A stretch of 64,000 bases of DNA. It comes from a virus. Shown piece after piece: positions 2,798 to 61,984 of the stretch. The first letter of the stretch is position 1. Every line of letters starts with the position of its first letter. The notes under the pieces are model-generated. The model was not told the DNA's origin and ran no database searches. It worked only from the letters and a program-made list of their open reading frames with translations. A program made the translations under genes and the position numbers. The stretch lies in the IMG/VR virus record IMGVR_UViG_3300032323_002909, positions 86,462 to 150,461 of that record. The stretch is one strand, 5' to 3'.

Positions 2798-3442
2798 ATG
2801 AGAAGTAGCGATTATTTTTTAGAAATTTCAAATATTTATTCGAGGATCATAAATGAATCCCCTGATAATATTACAATTATTGACGATAATGGTGATCATA
2901 AAAATATATCGTATTATAACACACCAGATGCCTACACTGGTCTTATCGGTAGTGATGGTGAATATGTCTTGTCGAAAGATATTATAGGTCATAGTAATTT
3001 AATCGATCATATTTTACATCATGGAGAAGATATTATTCAAAAGTTAATAACCAATCTTGATGATATATATGATTTGCAAAGATTGGTTAGAGAAAGAATA
3101 AAAATAAGAATTTGGAAAAATCAAAAAGTTTTTAGTATGTGGGATTATTACAAGCCTTCATACGAAACTGCCATCAAAAATTCCTTAAAAGCTATAGGTC
3201 AAAATTATAAACAATATAGATATGATAATGAATACAAAGATTATAATGACATGCCTTTATACGATACTTTTTTCGTAAATAGTTTAACGGATGAACAAAA
3301 AGAAGAGAACACGATGGCAGCAATGAAAAAAATTGAAGCAGAAAGAGCTTTAATGGATAAAATAGCTGGCGCTAGACAAAGACCATCGAATGGTGAAACG
3401 CCTTACAGAAAACCTTCTTGGATGAATAGAGAAGGGGATTAA
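2798..3442 (+). CDS. Late virion-associated protein, unknown function
   Basis: A 214-residue protein with no recognised enzymatic fold. The N-terminus (DYFLEISNIYSRIINES) fits the shared late motif, with a possible gp21-type cleavage site after IINE. The middle contains long helices (residues about 60-190). The C-terminus is basic and Pro-rich (RQRPSNGETPYRKPSWM), resembling a docking tail. It has its own late-type promoter. An internal head protein or structural accessory is the most likely role, by inference only. Confidence 0.55.
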   Translation: MRSSDYFLEISNIYSRIINESPDNITIIDDNGDHKNISYYNTPDAYTGLIGSDGEYVLSKDIIGHSNLIDHILHHGEDIIQKLITNLDDIYDLQRLVRERIKIRIWKNQKVFSMWDYYKPSYETAIKNSLKAIGQNYKQYRYDNEYKDYNDMPLYDTFFVNSLTDEQKEENTMAAMKKIEAERALMDKIAGARQRPSNGETPYRKPSWMNREGD

Positions 3443-9318: not shown

Positions 9319-10101
9319 ATGAAAGTCCGCGAAGGAATACATTTGTTTAATGGTGATTGCTTGGAAGTTCTAAAAAAGCTTCCAAGCGATTCTATTGATT
9401 TGATTTTGGCAGATCCCCCATATGAACAAAATATTCGTCTTAAATGGGATAAAATGATCGACTTTGAAACTCTTTGGGTCGAGCTTGGTAGAATAGCTAA
9501 AGACAAAAGCCCAATAGTTTTAATGGGTAATCAACCATTCACCACCGATCTTATAAATTCAAAAAGAGATTGGTTTAGATACGAATGGGTATGGGATAAA
9601 CACATACCTCGTGGTATGCATCAAGCCAAGTCTCAACCAATGCGAAAACACGAAAACATTATAGTGTTTTCTAAAAATTATCCTACCAATTATTATCCAA
9701 TAATGGAGGAGCGTGATAAACCCATCAGAAGAAAAAATTATAATAAAAATTCTAAAGGTATCGATGGGCATTACAAAGAAGATCAGACCGATAAATGGTT
9801 TGAATATACTCACAAGAACCCGAATACTATCATATCAGGTTGTTGGGAAAAAAATAAAGGTAAAGTTCATCCTACACAAAAACCCGTGTCATTGATGGAA
9901 TATCTAATCAAAACTTATACAAAAGAAAATGATTTGGTATTAGATTTTTGTTTTGGGTCTAACTCATGTGGGGTAGCTGCTTTGAATACCAATAGAAAAT
10001 ATATTGGTATCGAAAGAGACAAAGATTATTTTGAGCAGGGTAAAACCCGAATGATCAATCATTTATCATCAACCAATGATGATAATTTTTCGGTTTCTTA
10101 A
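9319..10101 (+). CDS. DNA adenine methyltransferase, beta-class order
   Basis: A probable site-specific N6-adenine (or N4-cytosine) methyltransferase of 260 residues. The catalytic motif DPPY (LADPPYEQ) is near residue 32, ahead of the AdoMet-binding motif DFCFGSNSCG near 209. This is the beta-class order. A typical KVHPTQKP segment near 180 supports the call. It may protect phage DNA from host restriction. No partner nuclease is seen, so it is probably an orphan. It is joined to uvsX without a gap. Its last 47 bp overlap the convergent virion gene. A 9-bp inverted repeat at 9359-9387 lies early in the coding region. Confidence 0.88.
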   Translation: MKVREGIHLFNGDCLEVLKKLPSDSIDLILADPPYEQNIRLKWDKMIDFETLWVELGRIAKDKSPIVLMGNQPFTTDLINSKRDWFRYEWVWDKHIPRGMHQAKSQPMRKHENIIVFSKNYPTNYYPIMEERDKPIRRKNYNKNSKGIDGHYKEDQTDKWFEYTHKNPNTIISGCWEKNKGKVHPTQKPVSLMEYLIKTYTKENDLVLDFCFGSNSCGVAALNTNRKYIGIERDKDYFEQGKTRMINHLSSTNDDNFSVS

Positions 10102-12073
10102 ATCCACGCTCTTTGAATTCTCCGACAGTGTTGGTGAATCTATCTTTTTTGACTTGTTCAGTGAAATAATCCATCACTGAACTCTCGTTCAAACCTTTTT
10201 GTTTGAGAGCAGAAATTCTTTCGCTGAGTCTGTCCATTTCATCCAAATCTGGATCATCTGACATCATTATTTCCGATAATCTATCTTCTAATTCGGAAAT
10301 AGACTCGGATGGTTCATCTTCGTCAGCGATGTCTTCTTCCGTGTCTACCGCATCATCTTCGACATCTGCAATATCATCTTCAATATCCATTGTGTCATCT
10401 TCGACATCTACAATATCATCTTCGGTATCGAAGTCATCATCTTCTGTTGGTTCTTCGGCAACTGAAGATGCTTCTTTTTTGAGGTCTTTTATTTCTTTTT
10501 CGATTCTTTCTATTTCATCGAAATCTGTATCATCATCCAATAACAAATCTTGTAGACGAGATTCTAGCTCATCAATTTTTGCTTGGGTTTCTGCGCTAAT
10601 ACCAGCTTTTGCTACAGGTTTGGTAGTTTTTCGAGTGGATGGATCTGACTTATTAGCTTCTTTTGATTTTCTCATTTGTTCTCTAATAGTCTTTTCTTTT
10701 TTCCATATTTTATACCAATTATCAAAAGTTTTTATTTTTTCTGGTGTATCTAATACTTTTTTCACAGTAGCCGTGTCAAATTCTTCATATTCATCAAAAT
10801 CAGAATCTGCTACGGTGTCGAATTCAGGTTGTTTGGCTAATTTCAACATATATTTACCAAGCATTTCTATTTCATTGGAATCATAAGAACTCAACATTTC
10901 CATGAAATCTTTTTTAGTAATCGAATCGTCTTCGATAAAATTGGAAAAATCGCCCAATAGTTTATCCGAAATCATTTTATGGGTTGCGATTGCCTTATCT
11001 GTATCATTATTTGCCTTGCCACTTCTTCTGATTTTTAAAAAATAATCCACAACATTTCTCAATCCTTCAAGCGGAAAATTATCGGTTGAAGTTGTCGTTT
11101 CAGTTGTTTTATTTTTAATATTATCTTTTTGTATTTGTTTTATTTTACGGATTAATGGTGACGCTGCCGCATAAATTCGATCTTTATCAAATCTGTTTAT
11201 ACCAAAAATTTCTTGAACACGTTTATCAGCAGCTACTGCAAAAGCAGATGTTTTAGGAACTCTTCTACCATAACTCATTGTTGGGGATTCCGTTTCCGCT
11301 TTGTCGTCATTTGCGATATCTTTGTTCACTCGAACACGCGCTCTCAAATCATTTATATCCAAATAATCTATACCATCCTCACTCAAAAAGCCTCTTGGAT
11401 TATCTTTAATATATTTCTCATCTTCAGGTGATAGACTTGTTCTGTTTTTCAAGAACAGTTGTGTGCGTTTCTTAGCCAATTCTCTATCATTTAAATTTTC
11501 TTGTTTCTTAGATTTGTCGAGCATGTATTCGATGTCATCTGGAGAATCGACATCATCTGGTATTGAGTCTAAAATAGTATTACCAGTTTTACGTTTTTTT
11601 GCTGCCGATGGAGCATCCAAATATTCAATAATATTGTTGACATTAAGTAATTGTTTTTTAATATCTTGTGATAATATTTTTTTGATATTATCTTTAACTA
11701 CGGTAAAAAGACCATATTCTGCTTGTTTTTGAGAAGATGGGGAATTAGATCCTGTGCTCGTTAACCAATTTAAAAATTCGTCGGTATAAATTCTAGTTCC
11801 AGCCACTTTTTTTACAACAGTGGGTATATAATCCCAAATATATTTCTGATCATAATCTAGTATGTCTAATAAAGTGGTTAGTAGATAATCAATCGTCTTT
11901 GCTCGCAAATGTCCTGCTGAAGTGACCTTACCTTCAGTTTTGATTATTTCTTTTACAGGATTGTAAATTTCATCATTGAAATTTTGTAATTTTAATTTAC
12001 TCCAGACATTCGCCCTATCTTCATTGATAAGTTGAACTCTCTCGGTTAAATAATCCAGATCATAAATTCTCAT
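10055..12073 (-). CDS. Large acidic late protein, probable internal head or core protein
   Basis: 672 residues. The N-terminus (MRIYDLDYLTERVQLINED) fits the shared late motif, with possible cleavage after LINE. Residues about 480-640 are strongly acidic with repeated VEDD/IEDD units. Two related helical segments flank the acidic stretch, ELESRLQDLLLDDDTDFDEI near 510 and ELEDRLSEIMMSDDPDLDEM near 600, an internal duplication. The C-terminus (GFKKPKNYHHWL) is basic. It uses a late promoter and converges on the methyltransferase. The acidic character recalls scaffold or core proteins. No enzyme domain is recognised. Confidence 0.6.
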   Translation of the reverse strand: MRIYDLDYLTERVQLINEDRANVWSKLKLQNFNDEIYNPVKEIIKTEGKVTSAGHLRAKTIDYLLTTLLDILDYDQKYIWDYIPTVVKKVAGTRIYTDEFLNWLTSTGSNSPSSQKQAEYGLFTVVKDNIKKILSQDIKKQLLNVNNIIEYLDAPSAAKKRKTGNTILDSIPDDVDSPDDIEYMLDKSKKQENLNDRELAKKRTQLFLKNRTSLSPEDEKYIKDNPRGFLSEDGIDYLDINDLRARVRVNKDIANDDKAETESPTMSYGRRVPKTSAFAVAADKRVQEIFGINRFDKDRIYAAASPLIRKIKQIQKDNIKNKTTETTTSTDNFPLEGLRNVVDYFLKIRRSGKANNDTDKAIATHKMISDKLLGDFSNFIEDDSITKKDFMEMLSSYDSNEIEMLGKYMLKLAKQPEFDTVADSDFDEYEEFDTATVKKVLDTPEKIKTFDNWYKIWKKEKTIREQMRKSKEANKSDPSTRKTTKPVAKAGISAETQAKIDELESRLQDLLLDDDTDFDEIERIEKEIKDLKKEASSVAEEPTEDDDFDTEDDIVDVEDDTMDIEDDIADVEDDAVDTEEDIADEDEPSESISELEDRLSEIMMSDDPDLDEMDRLSERISALKQKGLNESSVMDYFTEQVKKDRFTNTVGEFKERGFKKPKNYHHWLMIND

Positions 12074-12119: not shown

Positions 12120-12839
12120 ATGATTTCGTTCGCAAAACACTATTTGATCAAAGAAGCTTTTGATACTGTGACAGAATTTTTATTGAATCCTGAACACTCG
12201 GATAAAGAGTATGATGAACTAGTCGCGGAGTTTGAAGCTTCTGGTGGTGAAGTTTTGGGTTCTGGATCATTTGGTATTGTATATTCACACCCAAGTTGGC
12301 CCTATGTGCTCAAAGTGTTTAGTTGGGATGACCCATATCTAAAATTTGCAAGATACGCATACGACAACCCACATCCATCTTTTCCAAAATTTTATGGTAA
12401 ACCACAACGTGTTGTCCCTAATTATACGAGATATAAAGATGAAGCAAAGCAATATCTGGCAAGGATTGAACGTTTGGAACCAACTTCAGAAAATGTTTTG
12501 AATAAAATAAATGTGGAACTTATGTTATACTTTCATCTAAGGGACAATCCAGAATTGATAAAAAATCGAGTAGATTTTATGAAATTGTCTAGCAGAGTCA
12601 AAGCATTACCCAAAGAAATTTATAATCTATTAGATGGATTATATTTGATACGTAGAGATCTCCCCACATTGAACCCTGATTTACATGAAGATAATGTTAT
12701 GATGCGAGATGATGGTCAATATGTGTGGATCGATCCTGTTTGGACTGGCGATGAAGCTAGTGAAAACCCACTGACCGCTGCTATGACATCTAAGGACTAC
12801 GCTCCCGAAAACATGTTACGTGGTGGAAGAACATCTTGA
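12120..12839 (+). CDS. Protein-kinase-like late protein, possibly virion-packaged
   Basis: 239 residues with a recognisable kinase layout. Glycine-rich loop GSGSFGIVY near residues 42-50. Beta-3 lysine in YVLKVF near 65. Catalytic-loop-like DLHEDNVMM near 187 (Asp and Asn in the HxDxxxxN arrangement, with Asn-Pro-Asp in place of His-Arg-Asp). A metal-binding IDP in place of DFG near 204. The N-terminus MISFAKHYLIKEAFD matches the late-protein motif, with possible gp21-type cleavage after LIKE. Late expression plus this tag suggests a kinase carried in the head, comparable in logic to T4 Alt. Activity is unproven. The stop TGA lies within the next promoter. Confidence 0.65.
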   Translation: MISFAKHYLIKEAFDTVTEFLLNPEHSDKEYDELVAEFEASGGEVLGSGSFGIVYSHPSWPYVLKVFSWDDPYLKFARYAYDNPHPSFPKFYGKPQRVVPNYTRYKDEAKQYLARIERLEPTSENVLNKINVELMLYFHLRDNPELIKNRVDFMKLSSRVKALPKEIYNLLDGLYLIRRDLPTLNPDLHEDNVMMRDDGQYVWIDPVWTGDEASENPLTAAMTSKDYAPENMLRGGRTS

Positions 12840-14857: not shown

Positions 14858-15364
14858 ATGAATAAAAAAGATCAGGATAACATTGGGCTGATATATGAAA
14901 ACATTTTATTAGAAGCTAGTTTATCCAATAAAAATCTTTTTTATGGCTTAAAAAGCATGTTGGATGATGGCGAAGATTTCACAATGTTGACGGATAGAAA
15001 CATGGAAAAAGATGATCAACAAACTATGTCCTGTCAGTTTATATATAAAGGAACTAGACATATTAGAGTTTTCACGAGCGCGTTTTTTTCGACTAAAAAC
15101 TATGATAATCCTTCTCATCTCACAGTTTCTATATTTGAGGTGACACCAGAAGGTAAAACCATATCTAAGTTGGATACTAATGCTTTCTATAACAAAGGGG
15201 CATATTTCGACATCTCACACGATCCGATAATATCTTCTGTCGAGAATTTTGTCAAATATGTCAAGTCGGTGTTGGACAGGTCTGATAGAGATCGTGGAAA
15301 CGATGATGAAACGAAGCTTCCTAAATCACCAACCCCAACGAGTAAAAAATTAATATCGATTTGA
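14858..15364 (+). CDS. Late protein with capsid-targeting-like N-terminus, unknown body
   Basis: 168 residues. The N-terminus (DNIGLIYENILLEASL) is one of the best examples of the shared motif, with ILLE followed by Ala fitting a gp21-type cleavage site. The body (about 40-140) looks beta-rich, with a strand pair around QFIYKGTRHIRVFTSAFF. The C-terminus is Pro/Ser/Lys-rich. No known fold is recognised. It is isolated between early genes but has its own late promoter, which supports head packaging as an inference. Confidence 0.6.
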   Translation: MNKKDQDNIGLIYENILLEASLSNKNLFYGLKSMLDDGEDFTMLTDRNMEKDDQQTMSCQFIYKGTRHIRVFTSAFFSTKNYDNPSHLTVSIFEVTPEGKTISKLDTNAFYNKGAYFDISHDPIISSVENFVKYVKSVLDRSDRDRGNDDETKLPKSPTPTSKKLISI

Positions 15365-19606: not shown

Positions 19607-20251
19607 ATGAAATTAACACAAAAAGATCAGTCCGAGATAGCAAATTTATATTCCGAAATTTTAGTAGAAGCATTTTCAGATCTTGGGAAATTATCACCTG
19701 AGCAATTACGTAAAGGTTATCGTTTAAACCCGAATGATTCGGATAACTTTAAAGAAGTCAGTGGGCGAGTGTTTCATAACGCTTTGGAAGTTATCAAAAA
19801 TAACGACGATATGCGCAAAGTTACAAATCCCGACTACTATAAAGCTATCAGACAAAATCTTTCAACATATCCCATCGCTGAATATAATTCGATGAGATGT
19901 TTTCTAGGTAAGAATAATTCCAGTGGTTTCTGCATCAAAGACGACGATGAATTGGTTTCTTTGTTTTCTTCTTTAGAATCTTCTGGTAAAGCAGCTGCCC
20001 TAGCAGCTATTGAAAATGGTGCAAAACGACTTGATTGTTTCGCAACTCAAGATCAAAACGGTAACATTAAAAACGAAGGTTTATATAAACTTTACTCGTC
20101 TGTCGGGTTTGTTATTGACGAATCGTTGACTACTGGCGAACTAGGTGAGCCGTATGCAATACAAAATGGTATATCATATTTTGTCGGTCCAGATGAAGTA
20201 GTAGACCCAACCCACCCAACAGTGGTGATTTTCATGAAATTATCAAGATGA
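19607..20251 (+). CDS. GNAT acetyltransferase-like late protein
   Basis: 214 residues. The N-terminus (SEIANLYSEILVEAFS) is a strong example of the shared late motif, with cleavage expected after ILVE. The body resembles phage GNAT proteins: SGFCIKDDDELVSLF near 105-120, GKAAALAAIENGAKRLDCFA near 127-145 (acetyl-CoA-loop-like helix plus strand), LYKLYSSVGFVIDE near 160-175, and a final VVIFMKL strand. This suggests an acetyltransferase carried with the head. The catalytic residue cannot be assigned, and the acceptor is unknown. It overlaps the next gene by 4 bp (ATGA). Confidence 0.55.
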   Translation: MKLTQKDQSEIANLYSEILVEAFSDLGKLSPEQLRKGYRLNPNDSDNFKEVSGRVFHNALEVIKNNDDMRKVTNPDYYKAIRQNLSTYPIAEYNSMRCFLGKNNSSGFCIKDDDELVSLFSSLESSGKAAALAAIENGAKRLDCFATQDQNGNIKNEGLYKLYSSVGFVIDESLTTGELGEPYAIQNGISYFVGPDEVVDPTHPTVVIFMKLSR

Positions 20252-22514: not shown

Positions 22515-22937
22515 TTATTTGGTGTTTTTGCTAGGACTGAATAACTCGGCTAATCCTGCCAAATCAGCCGCAATCTTTGCGATTTTGTCTTGATGTTTTT
22601 TAAGATTTGCAAGATTCGAGTTGGGATTAGCATTTTGTAGAGTTTTTTGAATACTCGTAGATTGCTCACCATTAATATATTTGGTGAATTTATTGATGTT
22701 GGTAATCCACTTGTCTAAAAGATTACTCATTTGTTCATTCTGACGAGCCATTGGATCATCTGTATTATTAATAGCATTTGGATCGGGTTCCATATCGACA
22801 TCATAATCATCGATCCCCACATCATCGATACCATCCATAGAAGATTCGGCAGCATCTCTCTCCATAGTAGGATCGAAATCTAATTCAGGTGCTTCTTTGA
22901 GTAATTTAAGAAATTTTGATTTGAATTTGTTCGTCAT
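22515..22937 (-). CDS. Small acidic late protein with capsid-targeting-like N-terminus
   Basis: About 140 residues from the ATG at 22937, which lies 5 nt after TAAATA. The N-terminus (MTNKFKSKFLKLLKEAPEL) is basic and amphipathic, with LLKE followed by Ala as a possible gp21-type site. An acidic segment follows (residues 20-55), then helices. The layout (targeting peptide, acidic stretch, helix) suggests a head core or internal protein. It converges on primase with a 6-nt gap. Confidence 0.6.
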   Translation of the reverse strand: MTNKFKSKFLKLLKEAPELDFDPTMERDAAESSMDGIDDVGIDDYDVDMEPDPNAINNTDDPMARQNEQMSNLLDKWITNINKFTKYINGEQSTSIQKTLQNANPNSNLANLKKHQDKIAKIAADLAGLAELFSPSKNTK

Positions 22938-39146: not shown

Positions 39147-39629
39147 GAGTGTTGTATAGCCTATCGTGTTTAATTTCGATTTAATCGATAATCCTTCTAC
39201 GTTTAACGAAGGAACATTTATTTGTAAGTAAATTTCATATTCATTATCATCTGGTTTAGGAACCACAAGAACTCCAGATACTTCGATTCTTGGTTCACTC
39301 AGCGACAATTTTCTAATAATATCATCCTGTATCACATCTGCGGTGTATTTATTAATAGGTTCGAATAAAAATCTACGTAAATCTACTCCAAAAGTAGGAT
39401 TTAATATTTTTTGTCCAGGTGATGTTAGAAAACAATTCGCTACACTATTTTTAATTGCTTCGATATCAAAAATTGCTTGGACATCTTTCAAACTCTCTTT
39501 TTTATTGAGTTGACTATTCACATAATATTGTGTATTAAGGTCAAAATCGATATCTTTATACAAATAACCATTATCTAATGACTTTTGCTTAATATCGTTA
39601 TTTTTAAGAGATGTTATCTTTATGCTCAT
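39144..39629 (-). CDS. 25: Baseplate wedge protein gp25 (lysozyme-like fold family)
   Basis: 161 residues. AIKNSVANCFLTSPGQKILN, PTFGVDLRRFLFEP and DVIQDDIIRKLSLSEPRIEV match the gp25/W protein family, including the invariant N..T..GE/Q-type turn and RxFLFEP. It is part of the inner baseplate that triggers sheath contraction. A perfect inverted-repeat divergent late promoter controls this gene and the repeat protein at 39661. Confidence 0.88.
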   Translation of the reverse strand: MSIKITSLKNNDIKQKSLDNGYLYKDIDFDLNTQYYVNSQLNKKESLKDVQAIFDIEAIKNSVANCFLTSPGQKILNPTFGVDLRRFLFEPINKYTADVIQDDIIRKLSLSEPRIEVSGVLVVPKPDDNEYEIYLQINVPSLNVEGLSIKSKLNTIGYTTL

Positions 39630-39640
39630 ACAATTATTTA
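39630..39640 (-). promoter_or_regulatory. Late promoter of gp25, leaderless (TAAATA-N5-ATG)
   Basis: Minus-strand TAAATA at 39640-39635, ATTGT, ATG at 39629. Confidence 0.75.
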
Positions 39641-39649
39641 GATTCTTAT

Positions 39650-39660
39650 TAAATAATTGT
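39650..39660 (+). promoter_or_regulatory. Late promoter of repeat protein, leaderless (TAAATA-N5-ATG)
   Basis: TAAATA at 39650-39655, ATTGT, ATG at 39661. It is the mirror image of the gp25 promoter. Confidence 0.75.
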
Positions 39661-42288
39661 ATGCCAAAGATTTCTCAACTTAATTCAGCATTAACACCAT
39701 TATCAGGAAAAGAAGTAATCGTTCTTAACCAGAACGGGGTGACATATAATACTGAATTGGATACGCTCACACAGTTTATCAGTGCTTCTACTAGAATAGG
39801 TGATTTGTCTAGCAATCTAACCAATTTGACAACTTTGGTTAGAGTATCAAGTGGTGATTGGGAGAATACCCATACTACAATGACTTTATTGTCTGGGAAT
39901 TGGCAGAGCACTTACACCACTTTTTCAAGCAATTCGGCTAATTTTGCTGTCAAAAACGCCAATAATTTTTTTACTGCTGATCAAACTTTTTCAACAGGTC
40001 GAATCAACTTGAGCACATTTCCAATACGAGTATTGGCAGATAGTAATATTTCTATTGGTTTAAGCGCAGGTAATCTAACAACAAGTCCTACTAATACCAC
40101 ATTTATAGGTCGTAATGCTGGAAACAATGCGACATCCGTCACAAATTCTAATTTTATAGGTTTAAATGCTGGTCTCTCTGCTACAAATGCTAGCAATTCG
40201 AATTTCTTTGGTAATAATGCTGGAAATCGCGCCACAATTGCCGAAAATTCTAATTTCTTAGGTCGTAATGCTGGTCTCTCTGCTACAAATGCTAATAATT
40301 CTAATTTCTTGGGTCAAAATGCTGGACATGGAGCTACAAATGCTGCTTCTTCTAATTTTTTCGGTAATTGTGCTGGAAATCGAGCTATTAATGCTAATAA
40401 TTCTAATTTCTTAGGTGCTTATGCTGGATTTTGTGCTACAAATGCTTATAATTCTAATTTTTTAGGTCCAGATGCTGGATGTAGAGCTACAAATGCTAAA
40501 CAATCTAATTTTTTAGGTAATAATGCTGGAGAATGCGCTACAAATGCTTGTTATTCTAATTTCCTTGGTAAAAATGCTGGAAACCGTGCTACAAGTGCTG
40601 TTGTTTCCAATTTTATAGGTAATAACGCTGGCTTTTATGCTACAAATTCTAGTAATTCTAATTTTTTTGGTGGAGACACTGGACAATGCGCTACAAATGC
40701 TAGTTATTCTAATTTCTTGGGTAATCAAGCTGGAAAATACGGGACTAATGCTAATAATTCTAATTTCTTTGGTAGAAATGCTGGATATTGCGCTACAAAC
40801 GCTAACAATTCTAATTTCTTAGGTAGAGAAGCTGGATATTGCGCTACAAATGCTTCTTTTTCTAATTTTTTGGGTAATAATGCTGGTCTCTCTGCCAGAA
40901 ATGCTTTTTTTTCTAATTTCTTAGGTAGAAATTCTGGAAATCTCGCTACTTTTTCTTGTTGCTCTAATTTTTTCGGTAGTGCTGCTGGATCTAATGCTAC
41001 GTGCGCCCACAATTCTAATTTTGTGGGTGGGAGTGCTGGATTTGGTGCTACAAATGCTTGTTATTCTAATTTTGTAGGTAAGAATAGTGGAGGATCTGCC
41101 ACAAATGCTAATAATTCTAATTTCTTCGGTGAATCTGCTGGATACAACGCGACTGATGCTAATAATTCTAATTTTTTTGGACAGGAAGCTGGAAACAACG
41201 CGACTGATGCTAATAATTCTAATTTTTTAGGTGGCAGTGCTGGATATCAAGCTACAAATGCTAATAATTCCAATTTTTTAGGTAATAATGCTGGATATTG
41301 CGCTACAAATGCTAATGATTCTAATTTTTTAGGTAACAGTGCTGGATATTGCGCTACATATGCTTCTAATTCTAATTTCTTCGGCAATAATGCTGGATTT
41401 GGTGCTACTAATGCTAATAATTCCAATTTTTTAGGCTCTGGCGCTGGAGGTCACGCTTCTTGTGCTTACTTTTCTAATTTTCTGGGTGAATTCGCTGGAA
41501 ATTCCGCTACAAGTGCTAATAATTCTAATTTTTTTGGTAGTTTTGCTGGATACTTTGCTACAAATGCTAATAATTCCAATTTCTTCGGCGATAATGCTGG
41601 ATTTTGTGCAACCGATGCTAGTCATTCCAATTTCTTCGGTAATTATGCTGGTCTCTCTGCTACAAATGCTTACGATTCCAATTTCTTTGGTAACTGTGCT
41701 GGAGTTGGTGCTTACAATGCCGACATATCTAATTTCTTTGGTAAAAATGCTGGATATTACGCTACAAATGCTACTAGTTCCAATTTCTTCGGTGAAAATG
41801 CTGGTAGAGACGCTACAAATGCTGCTAATTCTAATTTCTTTGGCTATAATGCTGGTAGAGGTGCTGCAAGTGCTAGTCATTCCAATTTCTTAGGTTATAA
41901 CGCTGGACAGCTTGCTACAAATGCTGATAATTCTAATTTCTTTGGTAATAATGCTGGTTGTAATGCTGTAAATGCTTCTTATTCTGTATTCATAGGAGCA
42001 AATGCTGGTAGAGATGCTGGTCAGTCTAATAATTCCGTATTTATTGGTCGAAATTCAAATAATGGAATTAATGCTTGTAATGGAGTAGCTATCGGTGCTT
42101 ACACTCAAGTGGGTAATAGTGGCATTGCTATCGGTCGTGGTGCTTGTAGCCCAAGTAATGAATTATCATTCGGAAGCAACGCTTATCCCGTTGCAACATT
42201 ACCAGGTGGAACGTTTTATAGTTCGTATTGTAGCTTGGTAGTTTTCGTAAATGGCACATGTTTTAAAATACCGCTATTAAGTCCTTAA
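39661..42288 (+). CDS. Fibre-like protein built of 38 tandem 17-residue repeats
   Basis: 875 residues. An N-terminal region (1-145, with LSGKEVIVLNQNGVTYNTEL) resembles fibre attachment domains. Then come about 38 units of the form SNFxGxxAGxxATNAxx, exactly 17 residues each. The C-terminal part has GVAIGAYTQVGNSGIAIGRG, which resembles the AIG repeats of YadA-type trimeric adhesin heads. A stacked beta-roll or beta-helix fibre is likely, displayed on the virion. Many units carry Cys (GYCATNA). It is the only plus-strand gene at this edge of the minus-strand baseplate block. The start at 39661 is fixed by the late promoter. Confidence 0.7.
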   Translation: MPKISQLNSALTPLSGKEVIVLNQNGVTYNTELDTLTQFISASTRIGDLSSNLTNLTTLVRVSSGDWENTHTTMTLLSGNWQSTYTTFSSNSANFAVKNANNFFTADQTFSTGRINLSTFPIRVLADSNISIGLSAGNLTTSPTNTTFIGRNAGNNATSVTNSNFIGLNAGLSATNASNSNFFGNNAGNRATIAENSNFLGRNAGLSATNANNSNFLGQNAGHGATNAASSNFFGNCAGNRAINANNSNFLGAYAGFCATNAYNSNFLGPDAGCRATNAKQSNFLGNNAGECATNACYSNFLGKNAGNRATSAVVSNFIGNNAGFYATNSSNSNFFGGDTGQCATNASYSNFLGNQAGKYGTNANNSNFFGRNAGYCATNANNSNFLGREAGYCATNASFSNFLGNNAGLSARNAFFSNFLGRNSGNLATFSCCSNFFGSAAGSNATCAHNSNFVGGSAGFGATNACYSNFVGKNSGGSATNANNSNFFGESAGYNATDANNSNFFGQEAGNNATDANNSNFLGGSAGYQATNANNSNFLGNNAGYCATNANDSNFLGNSAGYCATYASNSNFFGNNAGFGATNANNSNFLGSGAGGHASCAYFSNFLGEFAGNSATSANNSNFFGSFAGYFATNANNSNFFGDNAGFCATDASHSNFFGNYAGLSATNAYDSNFFGNCAGVGAYNADISNFFGKNAGYYATNATSSNFFGENAGRDATNAANSNFFGYNAGRGAASASHSNFLGYNAGQLATNADNSNFFGNNAGCNAVNASYSVFIGANAGRDAGQSNNSVFIGRNSNNGINACNGVAIGAYTQVGNSGIAIGRGACSPSNELSFGSNAYPVATLPGGTFYSSYCSLVVFVNGTCFKIPLLSP
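40096..42033 (+). repeat. 38 x 51-bp tandem repeat array within the fibre gene
   Basis: The spacing from the first SNF codon (40147) to the last equivalent SVF (41983) is 1836 bp, exactly 36 periods of 51 bp, so there are no insertions or deletions between units. DNA divergence among units is moderate: core codons are kept and variable positions are scattered. Confidence 0.85.
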
Positions 42289-45454: not shown

Positions 45455-46240
45455 ATGCAATCGTTCTCGCAATTTTTCGAATCAAAATTGAAAAAATCGT
45501 CTATATCAAATGATGAACCTTATGAAGTTTATGATAAACACACGGGTGATATTATTTGGCGTGGCACATATGGCAAAAAACACATTGCTACAAGAATTAT
45601 TGATAAAAAAAATAATGAATATGGTGGTTATAGGTATTTTGGTAGACTTGTCAAAAAACCGTTATTGGAATATCGCCACAAAGATGCATTCGGTGGTATA
45701 AAGCAGAGTATCCATCCTGATAACAAAAAAGGTTCAAATTTGACTATAGATCCATCATCGAGAAAAATACCGTGGGTTAAAGGACCATATAAAAAAGAAA
45801 GAAAACAAGGTGAAATACTTATAGGTAAAGAGCTAGATAGAGAATTGGGTTCTTTAAACGGTGTGGAATTTGAAGAAGGTAAAGAAATAAAACGTAAAAA
45901 TTCTAATCAAATTTTAAAATTATTTATTAATGCACATGGTCAACCATGTGGTAGAATAATAGAGAAGCCTATGAATGAAAATTACGATAATAAACCATAC
46001 CCAACTCCCAAGTTGATAAAAATCGCATGGAAAAACCGTAAATGGTTTGCTGATAAAGGAGAGTTGGGGCAATATATGTTAAATGCTAAGAATGCGGAAG
46101 AATTTAAAACTAGATTGGTTTGGTTGAGTGAAGGTTCTTTGCGATATTATATGACAATGTTTGAGTCTCCCTATAAATATGGGGGTATGCCAGATGAACA
46201 CGAATTATATATAGAATTTGCTAACCAATTACCGATATAA
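45455..46240 (+). CDS. Late virion-type protein, unknown
   Basis: 261 residues from the ATG at 45455. The N-terminus MQSFSQFFESKLKKSS is a short version of the late motif (FxxFFES). The body is basic (PWVKGPYKKERKQGE near 105-120) with alpha/beta character, and the C-terminus (MFESPYKYGGMPDEHELYIE) may be a docking segment. It is not recognised. It sits between the terminator and gp14 with a 2-nt gap, so it is probably cotranscribed with the neck gene. Confidence 0.55.
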   Translation: MQSFSQFFESKLKKSSISNDEPYEVYDKHTGDIIWRGTYGKKHIATRIIDKKNNEYGGYRYFGRLVKKPLLEYRHKDAFGGIKQSIHPDNKKGSNLTIDPSSRKIPWVKGPYKKERKQGEILIGKELDRELGSLNGVEFEEGKEIKRKNSNQILKLFINAHGQPCGRIIEKPMNENYDNKPYPTPKLIKIAWKNRKWFADKGELGQYMLNAKNAEEFKTRLVWLSEGSLRYYMTMFESPYKYGGMPDEHELYIEFANQLPI

Positions 46241-57278: not shown

Positions 57279-57310
57279 CAAAAGCCCGATTATTTGGTCG
57301 GTCTTTTGTT
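57277..57310. terminator. Bidirectional terminator-like hairpin
   Basis: AACAAAAG (57277-57284) with CTTTTGTT (57303-57310) and inner CCGA/TCGG (57286-57289, 57298-57301), one mismatch. It lies at the convergent end of gp44 and the minus-strand gene at 57290, and includes both stop codons. Confidence 0.6.
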
Positions 57311-57886
57311 GGTAGTTTTCTTAGTTGGTGTTGGCGTTTTCTTAGCCGTCTTTTTAGCTGGTGTTGAGGTAGGTGTCTTTCTTGTAGGAGGAGTAGATGT
57401 AGGACTAGGGGTAGGGGTAGGGGTAGGACTAGGGGTAGGACTAGGACTAGATGCTCCACTTCCATTATATTTTAAATTTGTTAGTGCTCTGTTGAGTTGT
57501 TTGCTCAACATCTCAAACGATCTATCAATAAGTAAAGAATTATTTTCAGGGATAGTAATATCTAATTTCATTAAATCCGACATGATGTCATTTTTAACAT
57601 CATCAATTTTAATATTAATTGTTTTGATATAAGAATCAATTTTAGCATTATTACTATTACCAACGCTTGATTTGATATATTCTTTTGATTTATTATAAGA
57701 TTCTCCGCTGTCATCAAAACCACTCTTGACCCCATAACCAATTCCTTTTGCAAGATCTTTGACTCCTTTTATTGCGCCCATGACTTGCGATCCTCTTGCT
57801 TTAGCTCTATCGAACCAATTTTCTGTTAACAGTTCATCCACTAAATTAGTCAAATTTTTTTGATCTTCGCTTGAATATGTTCTCAT
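57290..57886 (-). CDS. Late protein with capsid-targeting-like start and Pro/Thr/Ser tail
   Basis: 198 residues. The N-terminus (SEDQKNLTNLVDELLTENWF) fits the late motif, with a possible cut after LLTE. A Gly-containing amphipathic segment (VMGAIKGVKDLAKGIGYGVK near 35-54) follows, then a helical middle (about 70-140). The low-complexity tail (SPTPSPTPTPTPSPTSTPPT type, then Lys/Thr-rich TPTKKTTNKR) is strongly basic. It could neutralise packaged DNA. Not recognised. Confidence 0.55.
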   Translation of the reverse strand: MRTYSSEDQKNLTNLVDELLTENWFDRAKARGSQVMGAIKGVKDLAKGIGYGVKSGFDDSGESYNKSKEYIKSSVGNSNNAKIDSYIKTINIKIDDVKNDIMSDLMKLDITIPENNSLLIDRSFEMLSKQLNRALTNLKYNGSGASSPSPTPSPTPTPTPSPTSTPPTRKTPTSTPAKKTAKKTPTPTKKTTNKRPTK

Positions 57887-57897
57887 GATATTATTTA
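57887..57897 (-). promoter_or_regulatory. Late promoter, leaderless (TAAATA-N5-ATG)
   Basis: Minus-strand TAAATA at 57897-57892, ATATC, ATG at 57886. Confidence 0.7.
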
Positions 57898-57904
57898 TTA
57901 AATT

Positions 57905-58150
57905 TTATTTATTTTTCCAATTTACTCTCTTGGAACTTTTTTTCTTATACATTTTATTTTTTATTTTTTTACATGCTGCTTTTGTAGCACGACATGCTGG
58001 ATATGAACCTTTCGAGGTATCATTTCTTCCACATGGTCCACCTGTCTTACAATTAATCCATCCTTTGAATTTTTTACCTTTTTTATCCACATGAGGTGCA
58101 AACCAATCACGTAAATTTTCCAGTAATTGCCTCTGTGACAGTTGTTCCAT
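57905..58150 (-). CDS. Small Cys/Lys-rich late protein
   Basis: 81 residues. The helical N-terminus (MEQLSQRQLLENLRDWF) recalls the late motif. The body GWINCKTGGPCGRNDTSKGS and YPACRATKAACK is a small four-Cys domain known from phage and giant-virus proteins of unknown function (the DUF6321/DUF5872 type, by memory). It ends very Lys-rich. It is encoded in an overlap (TAATG) with the next minus-strand gene. A DNA-binding or cross-linking role in the head is a guess. Confidence 0.55.
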   Translation of the reverse strand: MEQLSQRQLLENLRDWFAPHVDKKGKKFKGWINCKTGGPCGRNDTSKGSYPACRATKAACKKIKNKMYKKKSSKRVNWKNK

Positions 58151-58938
58151 TATTTTATTTTACCTTTGCGTTTGACACACTTTTGAACATATCCAGAAGC
58201 GTAAGCACTGGGCCAGACATCATATTTACTTTTTGCTTTTGATTGGCATTTTGAACGTAATGATTGCTCATCTTCTTCACCATCGCCATCTTCCTCTTCG
58301 TCGCCAAAGATTTTTTTGCCTATTTTTTCTTCCCAATCTTCTAATTTGCCGTTTTTATTTCTATCAGCTTTTTTGAAATCGAATTTTTCTTTCAAAGTTT
58401 TTTCATAAATCATGGTCAATTCATTCATTGATTCCCAATCTCTTGATTCTCCAGCTAATTTTAAATCTGTTGGGGTGTTCTTACCATTACCTTTGTCTGT
58501 GACATTGGTGATGATATTGGGATCTCTTTTCAATTGTTTGGGTTTGATAATAACTTGATCTTTTCTTTTGAATTGAGATGGAACTGGAACACCATTAGCG
58601 TAGTCTACCGAATCAATCATATCAGGACATACGGTTACTCTACCATAAGTTCTACCACCACCATGATCCGCAGCGATTGTCAATACAATATCAGATGCTG
58701 TTTTATATATGTTCCCAGCGGATGCGCCAGATAGTCTATCGCCCACATTAACGATTTTGATATTAAGACCACACGTGGCTAAGTCATCTACTTCTTTTTT
58801 CAAAGTTGTTGGCATGTTTCTGTAAGTGTCTGTGTTTTTGTATCCTGTTCTGAATACTACATATTCACCTGGTAAGTAGCCGCCAATTTCGCCTACACTT
58901 ACAACACTTTCATAAATTGCATCAAATTTCTGTCCCAT
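58150..58938 (-). CDS. Late protein with EF-hand-like loop and Cys/Lys C-terminal domain
   Basis: 262 residues. The N-terminus MGQKFDAIYESVVS fits the late motif. A beta-rich region follows (YLPGEYVVFRTGYKN to about 130). A DRNKNGKLEDWEEK loop near 196-208 resembles an EF-hand calcium loop (Asp, Asn, Asn, Lys/Leu, Glu), then comes an acidic DEEEDGDGEEDE stretch. The end is a KCQSKAKSKYDVWPSAYASG domain, a motif found in many phage and giant-virus proteins. It has an exact late promoter. Probably an internal virion protein. Confidence 0.6.
   Translation of the reverse strand: MGQKFDAIYESVVSVGEIGGYLPGEYVVFRTGYKNTDTYRNMPTTLKKEVDDLATCGLNIKIVNVGDRLSGASAGNIYKTASDIVLTIAADHGGGRTYGRVTVCPDMIDSVDYANGVPVPSQFKRKDQVIIKPKQLKRDPNIITNVTDKGNGKNTPTDLKLAGESRDWESMNELTMIYEKTLKEKFDFKKADRNKNGKLEDWEEKIGKKIFGDEEEDGDGEEDEQSLRSKCQSKAKSKYDVWPSAYASGYVQKCVKRKGKIK
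58151..58162 (-). promoter_or_regulatory. Late-type promoter variant (TAAAATA-N5-ATG)
   Basis: Minus-strand TAAAATA at 58162-58156, AAATA, ATG at 58150. It lies in the end of the upstream gene. Confidence 0.4.
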
Positions 58939-58949
58939 GATATTATTTA
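58939..58949 (-). promoter_or_regulatory. Late promoter, leaderless (TAAATA-N5-ATG)
   Basis: Minus-strand TAAATA at 58949-58944, ATATC, ATG at 58938. It is divergent with the promoter at 58960. Confidence 0.7.
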
Positions 58950-58959
58950 GCTATTTTGA

Positions 58960-58970
58960 TAAATAATAAT
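58960..58970 (+). promoter_or_regulatory. Late promoter, leaderless (TAAATA-N5-ATG)
   Basis: TAAATA at 58960-58965, ATAAT, ATG at 58971. Confidence 0.7.
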
Positions 58971-61178
58971 ATGAAATTCGATAAATTGTATGAATTGGCA
59001 TTGGAAGCAGCGAAAAATTTTGGAAGTCCAAAAAATATCGGTGGTGGTAGACTGCAAGGCGTTAAACAATCCACTACACCATCAGGATTTGTATCTAGTT
59101 CCGTAGGTAAGTCTGATAATTTTCAAGAAAGAGTGCCAATTGATCAAAAAAATAAAAAAGGTTACGATCCACGTGCATCAGCTAAACAAAAAAGACAAGG
59201 TATTGAAGTAACTGATGACATTACTGGTGAAACTATTGCTCGTAAAAAAACTGATTTTGAAAAAGGAAGCGTATTTGCTTTAGAAGGTCAAAAGAGTCAA
59301 GCTCTCTTCAATGCATTTGCATTGCTGCACAATTATTCAGGATTCCAAGCGGAAATGAATGAAATTATTAGCGATCTCGGTAACGCTCAAACCATCAATC
59401 AAAAAGATGAAAAAGATTTAAAAAATCTTCGATTCAACATTACTCAGAAGCAAGGTAAAGCAGAAATGCTGAGAGATAAAATCGCAACATATCAAAAAGT
59501 TATTGATAGTTATAACGAACCAGAAGAGGTGAAAGTAAAAACTTCTGAAGATCTGGCAGATCTTGAATCGTTATATGATACCAATTTTAAAAATCTTAAA
59601 AAAATCAAGGGTGGATCAAAATTGGTAAATTTCCTCAATACGTTGGAAAATTTAAAAATGCAGAAGTTGTCTATTTTAAAAAACTTCACATCGAAAACAT
59701 CACAATATGAAGTAGAGAAAGTTACTGCTAATATTAATCGGTTGGAGAACGATATAGATGAATATCTAGCTTCAAATCCGCAATATAAAAATTATTATGA
59801 TAAATTTATGACATATTCTGATCAGATAGAAGAACTGTCTGTGAAACATGCACATCACAAATTAAAACCCACTGATATATATGGCGAGAAAATCGTTAAA
59901 AAAGATGGTATCGAGGTTAAAAATCTTGGTATTCAAAATATTCTCGACAAGAGTATTGAAAAATTAAAAGAATTAGAAGGTGATCCAGAAAGCGAAGATG
60001 AAGATGAAGTTAAAGGTTCTATACAAAAAGATAAAGATGCTTTAGCTGCGCTTGAGCGATATACTTCTCGCGTCACTGCCTTCAACGAAAAATTGAATGA
60101 TAAATGCGTTGACAAATTTAAAAATTTAGTAGTTGATAGTGCTAAAAATATTTTAAGATCTAAATTTGAAAACGCTGATATTGCTATTGTAGATAATGAT
60201 GAAATTGATTGGACATCTACCTTACCTACCAGAGAAGACATGTATAATATATTGGTTAAGTTGTCGATGAATGATAACAACAATCCAATTTTTAGATTTG
60301 TTGATTCTATCGATAATTGGTATTACGATCAAAGAACTGATACTGAAACCAGAGGCGCGATGCGTTATGATATCAACAGAGCTATGAGTGATAATGAAAA
60401 TATCACCGTAATGAGAGATAAAGAAAGTCTACCATTCTTTAGAATAGTTAATTATTACAAAGCAGTTAAAATCGGCACTATGCCTATTAGTGATGCTATT
60501 ATGAATGATAATTTTAGAAAAGCTTATCGCCTTTTCTATACTATTTGTAATGTTGATGGTGATCAATCTGCAAGATGGAATAATGGTTCTATTAAATTAA
60601 AACTCAAAACGTTGCTGGGTATTGATAGTGGATTAAATCTTGATACTAAATCTGCTTTGAGCATGGGAGAAGCTATCAAAGATCATCGACGTATTGCATA
60701 CGAAAAATATATCGATAGTCCATATGATAAAAGAGGTATCGGTTCTTTCAAGAAATTGTTGTCCATGGTTGATGCAGATTTAAGATCTGATTATCCAAGA
60801 CAATTTCAAGCCATGCGTCCTAAAATTATCGGAAAGACTGTTACCGAATCGTTCGATCAAGCTGCGAACAGAATCGCATCATCTCTTATTAATTTTGACG
60901 CAAATGATTTTGTAATTGATTTACAAGAAGTTAAAACTTTATTGGAAAAGAAATGCACAGGACCGACTAAAAAAGCATCTAGCGACCGTAAAGGCAAAAA
61001 ATGGACTAAATGTGCAAGACAACCAGACGGATCGTATAAACGCATACATTGGGGTCAAGCAGGTGTTAGGGTAGGAAAAGACAATCCCAAACGGAGAAAG
61101 AGTTTCCGCGCAAGACACAAGTGTTCAAGTGCTAAAGCGGGTAGCGCGAATGCTCAAAGTTGTAAAGATTGGGGTTAA
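58971..61178 (+). CDS. Large late virion-type protein with coiled coil and Cys/Lys-rich end
   Basis: 735 residues. The N-terminus (MKFDKLYELALEAAKNFG) is a clear late-motif example, with LALE followed by Ala. Residues about 105-330 are long charged helices and coiled coils. The middle is alpha/beta. The C-terminus (about 660-735) is Cys/Lys/Arg-rich (KKCTGPTKKASSDRKG, then RKSFRARHKCSSAKAGSANA), a basic module common in phage structural proteins. The gene end is partly copied downstream of the neighbouring homing endonuclease. Function unknown; an internal head protein is likely. Confidence 0.6.
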   Translation: MKFDKLYELALEAAKNFGSPKNIGGGRLQGVKQSTTPSGFVSSSVGKSDNFQERVPIDQKNKKGYDPRASAKQKRQGIEVTDDITGETIARKKTDFEKGSVFALEGQKSQALFNAFALLHNYSGFQAEMNEIISDLGNAQTINQKDEKDLKNLRFNITQKQGKAEMLRDKIATYQKVIDSYNEPEEVKVKTSEDLADLESLYDTNFKNLKKIKGGSKLVNFLNTLENLKMQKLSILKNFTSKTSQYEVEKVTANINRLENDIDEYLASNPQYKNYYDKFMTYSDQIEELSVKHAHHKLKPTDIYGEKIVKKDGIEVKNLGIQNILDKSIEKLKELEGDPESEDEDEVKGSIQKDKDALAALERYTSRVTAFNEKLNDKCVDKFKNLVVDSAKNILRSKFENADIAIVDNDEIDWTSTLPTREDMYNILVKLSMNDNNNPIFRFVDSIDNWYYDQRTDTETRGAMRYDINRAMSDNENITVMRDKESLPFFRIVNYYKAVKIGTMPISDAIMNDNFRKAYRLFYTICNVDGDQSARWNNGSIKLKLKTLLGIDSGLNLDTKSALSMGEAIKDHRRIAYEKYIDSPYDKRGIGSFKKLLSMVDADLRSDYPRQFQAMRPKIIGKTVTESFDQAANRIASSLINFDANDFVIDLQEVKTLLEKKCTGPTKKASSDRKGKKWTKCARQPDGSYKRIHWGQAGVRVGKDNPKRRKSFRARHKCSSAKAGSANAQSCKDWG
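61160..61172 (+). repeat. 13-bp direct repeat flanking the homing endonuclease gene, left copy
   Basis: TTGTAAAGATTGG within the last codons of the 58971 gene. The identical right copy is at 61998-62010. The two enclose the GIY-YIG gene. Confidence 0.7.
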
Positions 61179-61984
61179 ATATCCTCACATTTTATCATTT
61201 CTTTGATTCTAAATCCTTTTGATTTACTAGGAGATCCATTCTTTTTAATTTTTTTAAAAGTTCTTCGCAATCCTTTATAATCCAAATTATATTTTTTACA
61301 GAAAACAACCATTTTATCTACCCATATTTCATCACCATTTGGAAAAACTACCAAATATTTGTTGGAAGTTTTTTGGATTTTTTTCGAATTATTTTCGCGG
61401 AAAGATTGTAATCTTTCAATTTCTAATAGTTTTTTTCTAGTGTTGTCGTATTTTAAATTATACATGTCTATCCATTTGGAAATCGTGTTTCGGTCTCTGC
61501 CTAATTTTTCAGCAATTTCTTTTATTAGAAAATTATTTCCCAGCATCTTTTCAATTTCTAAAACTTCTTCAAAATTCTTTACATACAAATTATCATAATA
61601 TGTAATATTTCTCTTTTTTCGCATCTCATCCACTTTATCTTCGCCGTAAATTTTTTTTATCATATCTAAAGACGGTGGTTGATTTCCACCATCGGAAAAA
61701 TTGAATAATATACCTGTATTATCACATCGTTTTCCGTATTGTTTGATCAATTTTTTTTCAATTTTAAAAGCTTCACTTTCTGTCAATCCATCATACAATA
61801 TTTCACCTTTTAAATTTTTATTTTTATTTTTTAAATTTTTGAATTTACATTCTAACATATAACTATGTAATTTCTTACATTCTAAAGAATATCTTTTAAT
61901 TCTTCTTCCAGAACCTTTCCCAATATAAAAAGGTAAATAATTACCTTCTTCAAATAACCCATAAACATAATATTTATTTATCAT
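61175..61984 (-). CDS. GIY-YIG homing endonuclease, free-standing
   Basis: 269 residues. YYVYGL near 5-10 and FYIGKGSGRR near 19-28 are the two halves of the GIY-YIG motif. The Arg after the second half and a downstream Glu (EKKLIKQYG near 77) complete the nuclease site. The C-terminal half has helix-turn-helix/NUMOD-type DNA-binding segments (NFLIKEIAEKLGRDRNTISK near 150-170). It overlaps the upstream virion gene by 4 bp tail to tail and has its own exact late promoter. It is a selfish mobile gene inserted between virion genes. Confidence 0.85.
   Translation of the reverse strand: MINKYYVYGLFEEGNYLPFYIGKGSGRRIKRYSLECKKLHSYMLECKFKNLKNKNKNLKGEILYDGLTESEAFKIEKKLIKQYGKRCDNTGILFNFSDGGNQPPSLDMIKKIYGEDKVDEMRKKRNITYYDNLYVKNFEEVLEIEKMLGNNFLIKEIAEKLGRDRNTISKWIDMYNLKYDNTRKKLLEIERLQSFRENNSKKIQKTSNKYLVVFPNGDEIWVDKMVVFCKKYNLDYKGLRRTFKKIKKNGSPSKSKGFRIKEMIKCEDI

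Follow-up and report, generated by a model that had tools for sequence, protein, structure and literature searches.

Introduction

Among the closest described counterparts of the proteins analysed here are the internal head proteins of phage T4. According to an excerpt of a published account (PMC9026906), these are made with a propeptide, 10-19 residues long, at the N-terminus; targeting depends on its residues 4 and 7, and the protease gp21 cuts it after [LI]xE. IPII and IPIII both begin MKTYQEFIAE/A (the slash marks a cut, here and below) and Alt begins MELITELFDE. The present analysis concerns four neighbouring genes, P1 to P4, at positions 57290-61178 of a 64-kb window, the whole stretch of DNA analysed, which is the final part of the 150,461-base IMG/VR phage record IMGVR_UViG_3300032323_002909. 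The window includes a T4-type clamp loader gene (phrog_168), and the record has a gene for an S77/gp21 prohead protease (PF03420 at G000:C1:43526-43972, E 3.5e-29). We propose, with a probability of about 0.75, that P1 to P4 are internal head proteins of a T4-like phage, processed by gp21.

Results

Capsid-targeting tags

A preliminary description of this DNA had pointed to four neighbouring late genes for tagged basic proteins, with a PTPS/K-rich tail and the motifs GPCGRN..CRATKAAC, KCQSK..VWPSAYASG and RKSFRARHKC; all four open reading frames (ORFs) and their motifs are present at the positions it gave, tags being evident in P1, P3 and P4 and only degenerate in P2. P1 to P3 lie on the minus strand and P4 on the plus strand; P3 and P4 diverge from 58938 and 58971, and P3 and P2 abut at 58150. 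P1 (57290-57886, 198 residues, basic) comprises a tag, a Gly-rich body and the PTPS/K-rich tail. Its tag, MRTYSSEDQKNLTNLVDELLTE/N (57821-57886), is predicted to be cut after 22 residues, at LTE/N, which fits [LI]xE but in a propeptide beyond the 10-19 residues of the T4 rule. P2 (57905-58150, 81 residues) is a four-Cys GPCGR protein and constitutes the module that we call M1; its relatives have a full tag at the same place, for example MKTFEEFFTE/NLRDWF. P3 (58150-58938, 262 residues) has the tag MGQKFDAIYESVVSVGE/I, an acidic N-terminal domain, an EF-hand-like loop and, at its C-terminus, module M2. P4 (58971-61178, 735 residues) has the tag MKFDKLYELALE/A, a long N-terminal domain and module M3. 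The predicted P4 tag (58971-59006) ends LALE/A, a near variant of [LI]xE with A third from last; relatives begin MNFDDLYTLALE/A, MKFDDLVREILE/A and others.

Whole P2, P3 and P4 were used as queries, yielding 80, 1 and 62 IMG/VR loci respectively (a single relative for whole P3), and named phages were fetched at E values up to 1 (58, 176 and 10 records). The end regions M1, M2 and M3 were then turned into profiles by iteration, and all ORFs scanned in 153 loci and the window. The tag pattern, composed after the N-termini had been inspected, is matched by 76 of 162 distinct module-carrying ORFs, many of them related, as against 89 of the 1161 remaining ORFs that these loci hold with a length of 100 codons or more (odds ratio 10.6, p 7e-33). 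Shuffling of the carriers leads one to expect 3.85 matches, and tags persist in 40 of 88 carriers whose N-termini are less than 60% identical. Two other assays were weaker than this cross-phage test: a first, loose regular expression matched 19 of 193 ORFs (7.2 after shuffling), and a leave-one-out matrix built on seeds chosen by hand yielded 10 as compared with 1.7 at score 8.

Many relatives have the tag directly abutting a module—in L140, MKTFEEFFTE/NLRDWF for M1 and MKTFEQLYQEIILE/KKDACYKK for M2; in L052, MNFDELYDYMMLLE/SKCTKV for M3—and the mature product would therefore be the bare module. P4 itself has a predicted second gp21 site, LLE/KKCTGP (60939-60947, plus strand), directly before M3. 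At this junction [LIVMF]xE occurs in 17 of 26 distinct carriers with an N-terminal domain, where 6.7 are expected; the corresponding figures for the M2 junction (15 of 34, 6.1 expected) are not used as support because most of these sites lie in acidic runs. Processing by gp21 into free modules, which is likely, adds to what the preliminary description had proposed. The S77/gp21 protease (PF03420) was found in 18 of 32 records, including all 15 of those of at least 114 kb. CRP-902, CRP-235, Kolga and HTVC106P, smaller complete genomes, have no S77/gp21, and their modules are untagged.

Eight more genes of the window start with similar tags, such as MKLTQKDQSEIANLYSEILVE/A and MQSFSQFFESK, and would be additional head cargo: 2439-2729, 2798-3442, 10055-12073, 12120-12839, 14858-15364, 19607-20251, 22515-22937 and 45455-46240.

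Late-type promoter boxes

T4 late promoters read TATAAATA. The sequence TAAATA stands 5-9 nucleotides ahead of the ATG of P1 (57892-57897, minus strand), P3 (58944-58949, minus) and, divergently from the latter, P4 (58960-58965, plus), as well as upstream of seven of the eight further tagged genes. When genes of the window were assigned by us to classes, the box was present upstream of 10 of 11 tagged, 10 of 19 virion, 0 of 7 replication and 6 of 30 other genes; the random background is 0.04 per 48-nucleotide stretch. As promoter-like sequences, these boxes support late expression of P1, P3 and P4, in keeping with the 'late' of the preliminary description.

Related proteins in virions

The S-SM1 protein GC190, which begins MKKFSAFLNE/A, was found in S-SM1 virions, as stated in the excerpted text of PMC3037559. 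ORF012 of phage CL131 is a portal protein of 1393 residues in which M3 occupies roughly residues 534-604, and an excerpt of PMC6293099 reports detection of this M3-bearing portal by liquid chromatography-tandem mass spectrometry. Head-protein contexts recur elsewhere: Aeromonas phage phiA009 has an M3 protein between its terminase and major capsid genes, and a match to phrog_220, annotated as 'minor head protein and DNA pilot', was obtained for 8 of 46 diverse M3 segments. By analogy with GC190 and the CL131 portal, P1 to P4 would be present in mature virions.

The modules and the bodies that carry them

The basic character attributed to the tails resides in the modules: net charge is +17.5 in the 81 residues of M1, +9.4 in the 37 of M2 (SLRSKCQSKAKSKYDVWPSAYASGYVQKCVKRKGKIK, with two Cys; 58153-58263, minus strand) and +18.9 in the 76 of M3 (60948-61175, plus strand; four Cys and the RKSFRARHKC core), while the remainders of P3 (-7.4) and P4 (-3.0) are not basic. 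The K-rich tail of P1 is not retained in the P1 relatives that lie beside M1 in L017, L022, L023, L024 and L095 with the matching start ..NLEELLEE/[GK]. Nor does the EF-hand-like loop of P3 (DRNKNGKLEDWE; 58330-58365, minus strand), which had been tied to the KCQSK..VWPSAYASG domain, belong to the module or the system: it lies outside M2 and occurs in 7 of 29 distinct M2 carriers having an N-terminal domain, and was rejected on this count.

M1 has 25 invariant columns (21 sequences), M2 has 8 (15 sequences) and M3 has 9 (23 sequences), which places their motifs beyond chance, while the body between tag and module ranges from zero to more than 600 residues across carriers, and the bodies preceding M2 and M3 are highly variable. 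Such variation would suit injected effectors like T4 IPI* and Alt, in which case the cargo would act in the new host, by anti-restriction or takeover, and the modules would serve delivery or stability and not DNA condensation; T4 offers the precedent (excerpts of PMC3012670 and PMC9026906), and some tagged ORFs of this phage have bodies resembling enzymes (poly(A)-polymerase head, Zn_protease-like, GNAT-like). We regard this as rather unlikely, M1 to M3 being strongly conserved and often the entire mature product, as would be expected of proteins with a structural or DNA role more than of a rapidly changing effector.

A conserved triad

What had been described as four separate tails is in three cases part of a conserved set: M1, M2 and M3 are a triad of neighbours. 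Any module was present in 149 sources, a tally that includes some contigs fetched twice: all three in 75, M1 and M2 in 23, M3 only in 43, M1 only in 4, M2 only in 2, M1 with M3 in 1 and M2 with M3 in 1. Merging identical module sets left 63 distinct M1 loci. M2 is found in 59 of these, always on the same strand, and ends 0-250 nucleotides upstream of M1 in 53; M3 is found in 43, on the same strand in 34 and the opposite in 9. Some, not all, of the 21 loci missing M2 or M3 are interrupted by a contig end. The three are also neighbours in Roseobacter phage CRP-902, whose 52-kb genome is not T4-like, and are partly fused in cyanophages: a 708-residue protein of Synechococcus phage S-SM2, encoded between gp16 and gp17, contains M1-like, M2 and DUF6321 segments, and a 'structural protein' of S-B68 contains M1-like and M2 segments. 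No report of the triad was found in literature on cyanophage capsid targeting sequences or on DUF6321, DUF5754 or DUF5872, which is not proof of absence.

Synteny of this kind could reflect a late accessory cassette inherited as a block, its modules having no joint function, and a homing-endonuclease-like gene, which we take to be GIY-YIG-like, does lie beside the modules in the window, L037, L044, L062 and L063. This we consider improbable, in view of the same trio in CRP-902, the fusions within single cyanophage chains and the occurrence of M3 on either strand, which implies that the block was rearranged and yet kept.

Paired cysteines

All four Cys of M1 are kept in 51 of 51 distinct full sequences and both Cys of M2 in 39 of 39; the M1-like segments of three cyanophage proteins retain C2 and C3 but are missing C1 and C4 together. 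M3 has C3 and C4 in 36 of 36 distinct sequences, and C1 and C2 both in 12, neither in 22, C1 only in 2 and C2 only in 0 (Fisher p 7e-8, ignoring kinship and on a count that left out 55 of 189 rows). The modules, being Cys-rich, basic, stand-alone and, in phages without gp21, untagged, might be read as small zinc-binding nucleic-acid domains active in the infected cell, in transcription or on RNA, with virion carriage secondary. We think this improbable: C1 and C2 of M3 are lost as a pair while C3 and C4 stay, which speaks against one obligate Cys4 zinc site, the joint absence of C1 and C4 from M1 is a further misfit, and the virion is where tags and late boxes would place the modules. Loss and retention in pairs is more in keeping with independent pairs than with one Cys4 metal site and suggests a disulfide role; of the 'disulfide-linked layers' proposed earlier, the disulfides are plausible and the layers are without support.

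M3 and its relatives

Profile searches for the end domains, as the preliminary description had advocated, traced the modules through the 149 sources. In viral contigs, at least 532 M3 relatives were confirmed among the 600 pattern matches listed. A further 49 M3 loci in genome contigs of many phyla are taken to be putative phage sequence in assemblies. In Pfam, P1 to P4 have no family above cut-off, the end of P4 matching only DUF5754 (E 0.51), and no row for DUF6321 at E values up to 1. Among 46 diverse M3 members, 27 match DUF5754 (PF19058) weakly at E values up to 0.1, the best being 3.6e-5, and all 46 match phrog_7595, as does the M3 of the window (E 9.5e-5). DUF5754 is equated with Tlr6f in an excerpt of PMC12220804; Tlr6f is described, in the part of PMC4642659 available, as conserved in Polinton-like viruses, virophages, giant viruses and some phages, its function being given there as not known.

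The AlphaFold2 model of M3 (pLDDT, predicted local distance difference test score, 81) predicts a beta-hairpin and two helices. Compared by Foldseek with models of viral proteins, it has among its matches Tunisvirus V9SE36 (E 4.1e-3, probability 1.00) and a Chrysochromulina virus protein; with the weak DUF5754/Tlr6f matches, these predicted likenesses uphold, for M3 only, the earlier suggestion that the modules occur in unrelated large viruses. Sequence searches of the PDB with the M1, M2 and M3 profiles gave chance-level matches only (antibodies, uL16, RNase HII).

Other genes and tagged proteins

The protein encoded directly behind M3 (61175-61984) starts YVYGLFEEGN..FYIGKGSGRR, presumably a GIY-YIG-like motif, and has weak helix-turn-helix matches. 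Genes similar to it adjoin M3 in the four loci named above, which suggests repeated homing into the locus. Elsewhere in the window, an 888-residue protein (39622-42288) with many NSNFLGxNAGxxATNA repeats is probably a fibre. Of the tagged genes, that at 12120-12839 encodes 239 residues including a stretch LGSGSFGIVY..VLKVF, which has no Pfam match and, we assume, resembles a kinase glycine loop.

A second cluster of tagged genes lies at L003:3993-12576 (genome 20993-29576); one product has a poly(A)-polymerase head and an HD domain, and two share [ST]F[EQ]KYYCLRES starts ahead of different bodies. At L006:9449-10487 (genome 78449-79487), a tagged protein whose tail, AKKTARKT, is like that of histone H1 adjoins a tagged Zn_protease-like/aspartyl-protease-like protein, MISFKQFFVE/K. 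At L170:4926-5216, M3 is near the C-terminus of a 928-residue protein with the tag-like start MRRFLELIEQKENVVFTFGRFNPPTT, which we take to be cytidylyltransferase-like, an enzyme and M3 in one chain.

Discussion

T4-type tags, the S77/gp21 protease, late boxes and published proteomics of related proteins strongly support P1 to P4 as tagged inner-head virion proteins. Their packaging in the head is well supported; for the window phage itself, packaging and cutting are what sequence and analogy predict. In outline, P1 to P4 would be synthesized late as precursors whose N-terminal tag binds the prohead core; a gp21-type protease would take off the tag by cutting after [LI]xE and, in the case of P4, would probably cut the linker before M3 too, freeing the C-terminal module. 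The mature cargo, chiefly the small basic M1, M2 and M3, would remain inside the head, where a Lys/Arg-rich module surface could neutralise packaged DNA. Paired cysteines would stabilise the tiny folds, probably as disulfides after the particle has left the cell, and the modules may be ejected together with the DNA. DNA binding, as proposed in the preliminary description, is plausible from charge, and contact with DNA also from the head-protein contexts; we rate the chance that condensing DNA is the modules' main task at slightly below even.

Several points weigh against this reading. The tag of P3 ends VGE/I, only a near variant of [LI]xE, and where P3 passes into M2 no [LI]xE site is clearly present; the tag of P2 (MEQLSQRQLLE/NLRDWF) fits the motif at LLE/N and lacks the aromatic part. 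The tag test was not blind, because its pattern was written after the N-termini were seen. The multi-module protein of cyanophage S-SM1 has no N-terminal tag, and untagged modules in phages without gp21 imply that their role there need not depend on the tag and gp21 route. The virion proteomics concerns proteins of other phages, GC190 and the CL131 portal. The AlphaFold2 model of M1 is unusable (pLDDT 50), and that of M3 has no clear match in the PDB; we claim no fold for M3, its best match there reaching only Z 2.2.

A broader proposal, which we think distinctly doubtful, is that M3 and Tlr6f/DUF5754 belong to a single family, common to tailed phages, giant viruses and Polinton-like viruses, whose small, basic, Cys-paired members lie in the inner capsid and serve to condense viral DNA or to escort it, M3 making with M1 and M2 a three-part, protease-released kit for packaging phage DNA. 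M3 aligns across most of the DUF5754 profile, but the M3 of the window scores 15.8 bits, under the Pfam gathering cut-off of 27.4. The likeness to phrog_7595 (function unknown) extends to every M3 member compared, whereas in phrog_220 the M3-matching segment sits within a 1338-position head-protein profile.

With IPI, IPII, IPIII and Alt of T4, the present system shares a short N-terminal tag with hydrophobic or aromatic residues like T4 residues 4 and 7, the [LI]xE cut site, late-type genes, basic parts, variable bodies and gp21. It differs in that no sequence relation of the bodies to those of T4 was found, in its conserved Cys-paired end modules with a probable second cut before M3, and in the number of tagged candidates, about 20-25 in the genome of the window phage. 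The cyanophage protein T4-GC119 (S-SM1, S-SM2, S-B68) resembles it in having M1-like and M2 segments, the S-B68 copy being annotated as structural, but is one long multi-module chain, which in S-SM2 ends in DUF6321 in place of M3 and in S-SM1 is untagged. Capsid-targeted cargo has so far been known chiefly from T4 and related coliphages. In many aquatic phages a conserved set of three tiny modules is carried by the same principle of tag and cut, so that virion cargo in metagenomic genomes can be predicted from a sequence pattern of a single line. M3-like proteins (phrog_7595 and, through their resemblance to M3, perhaps Tlr6f/DUF5754), which are common among viruses large and small, also gain by this a function that can be put to the test.

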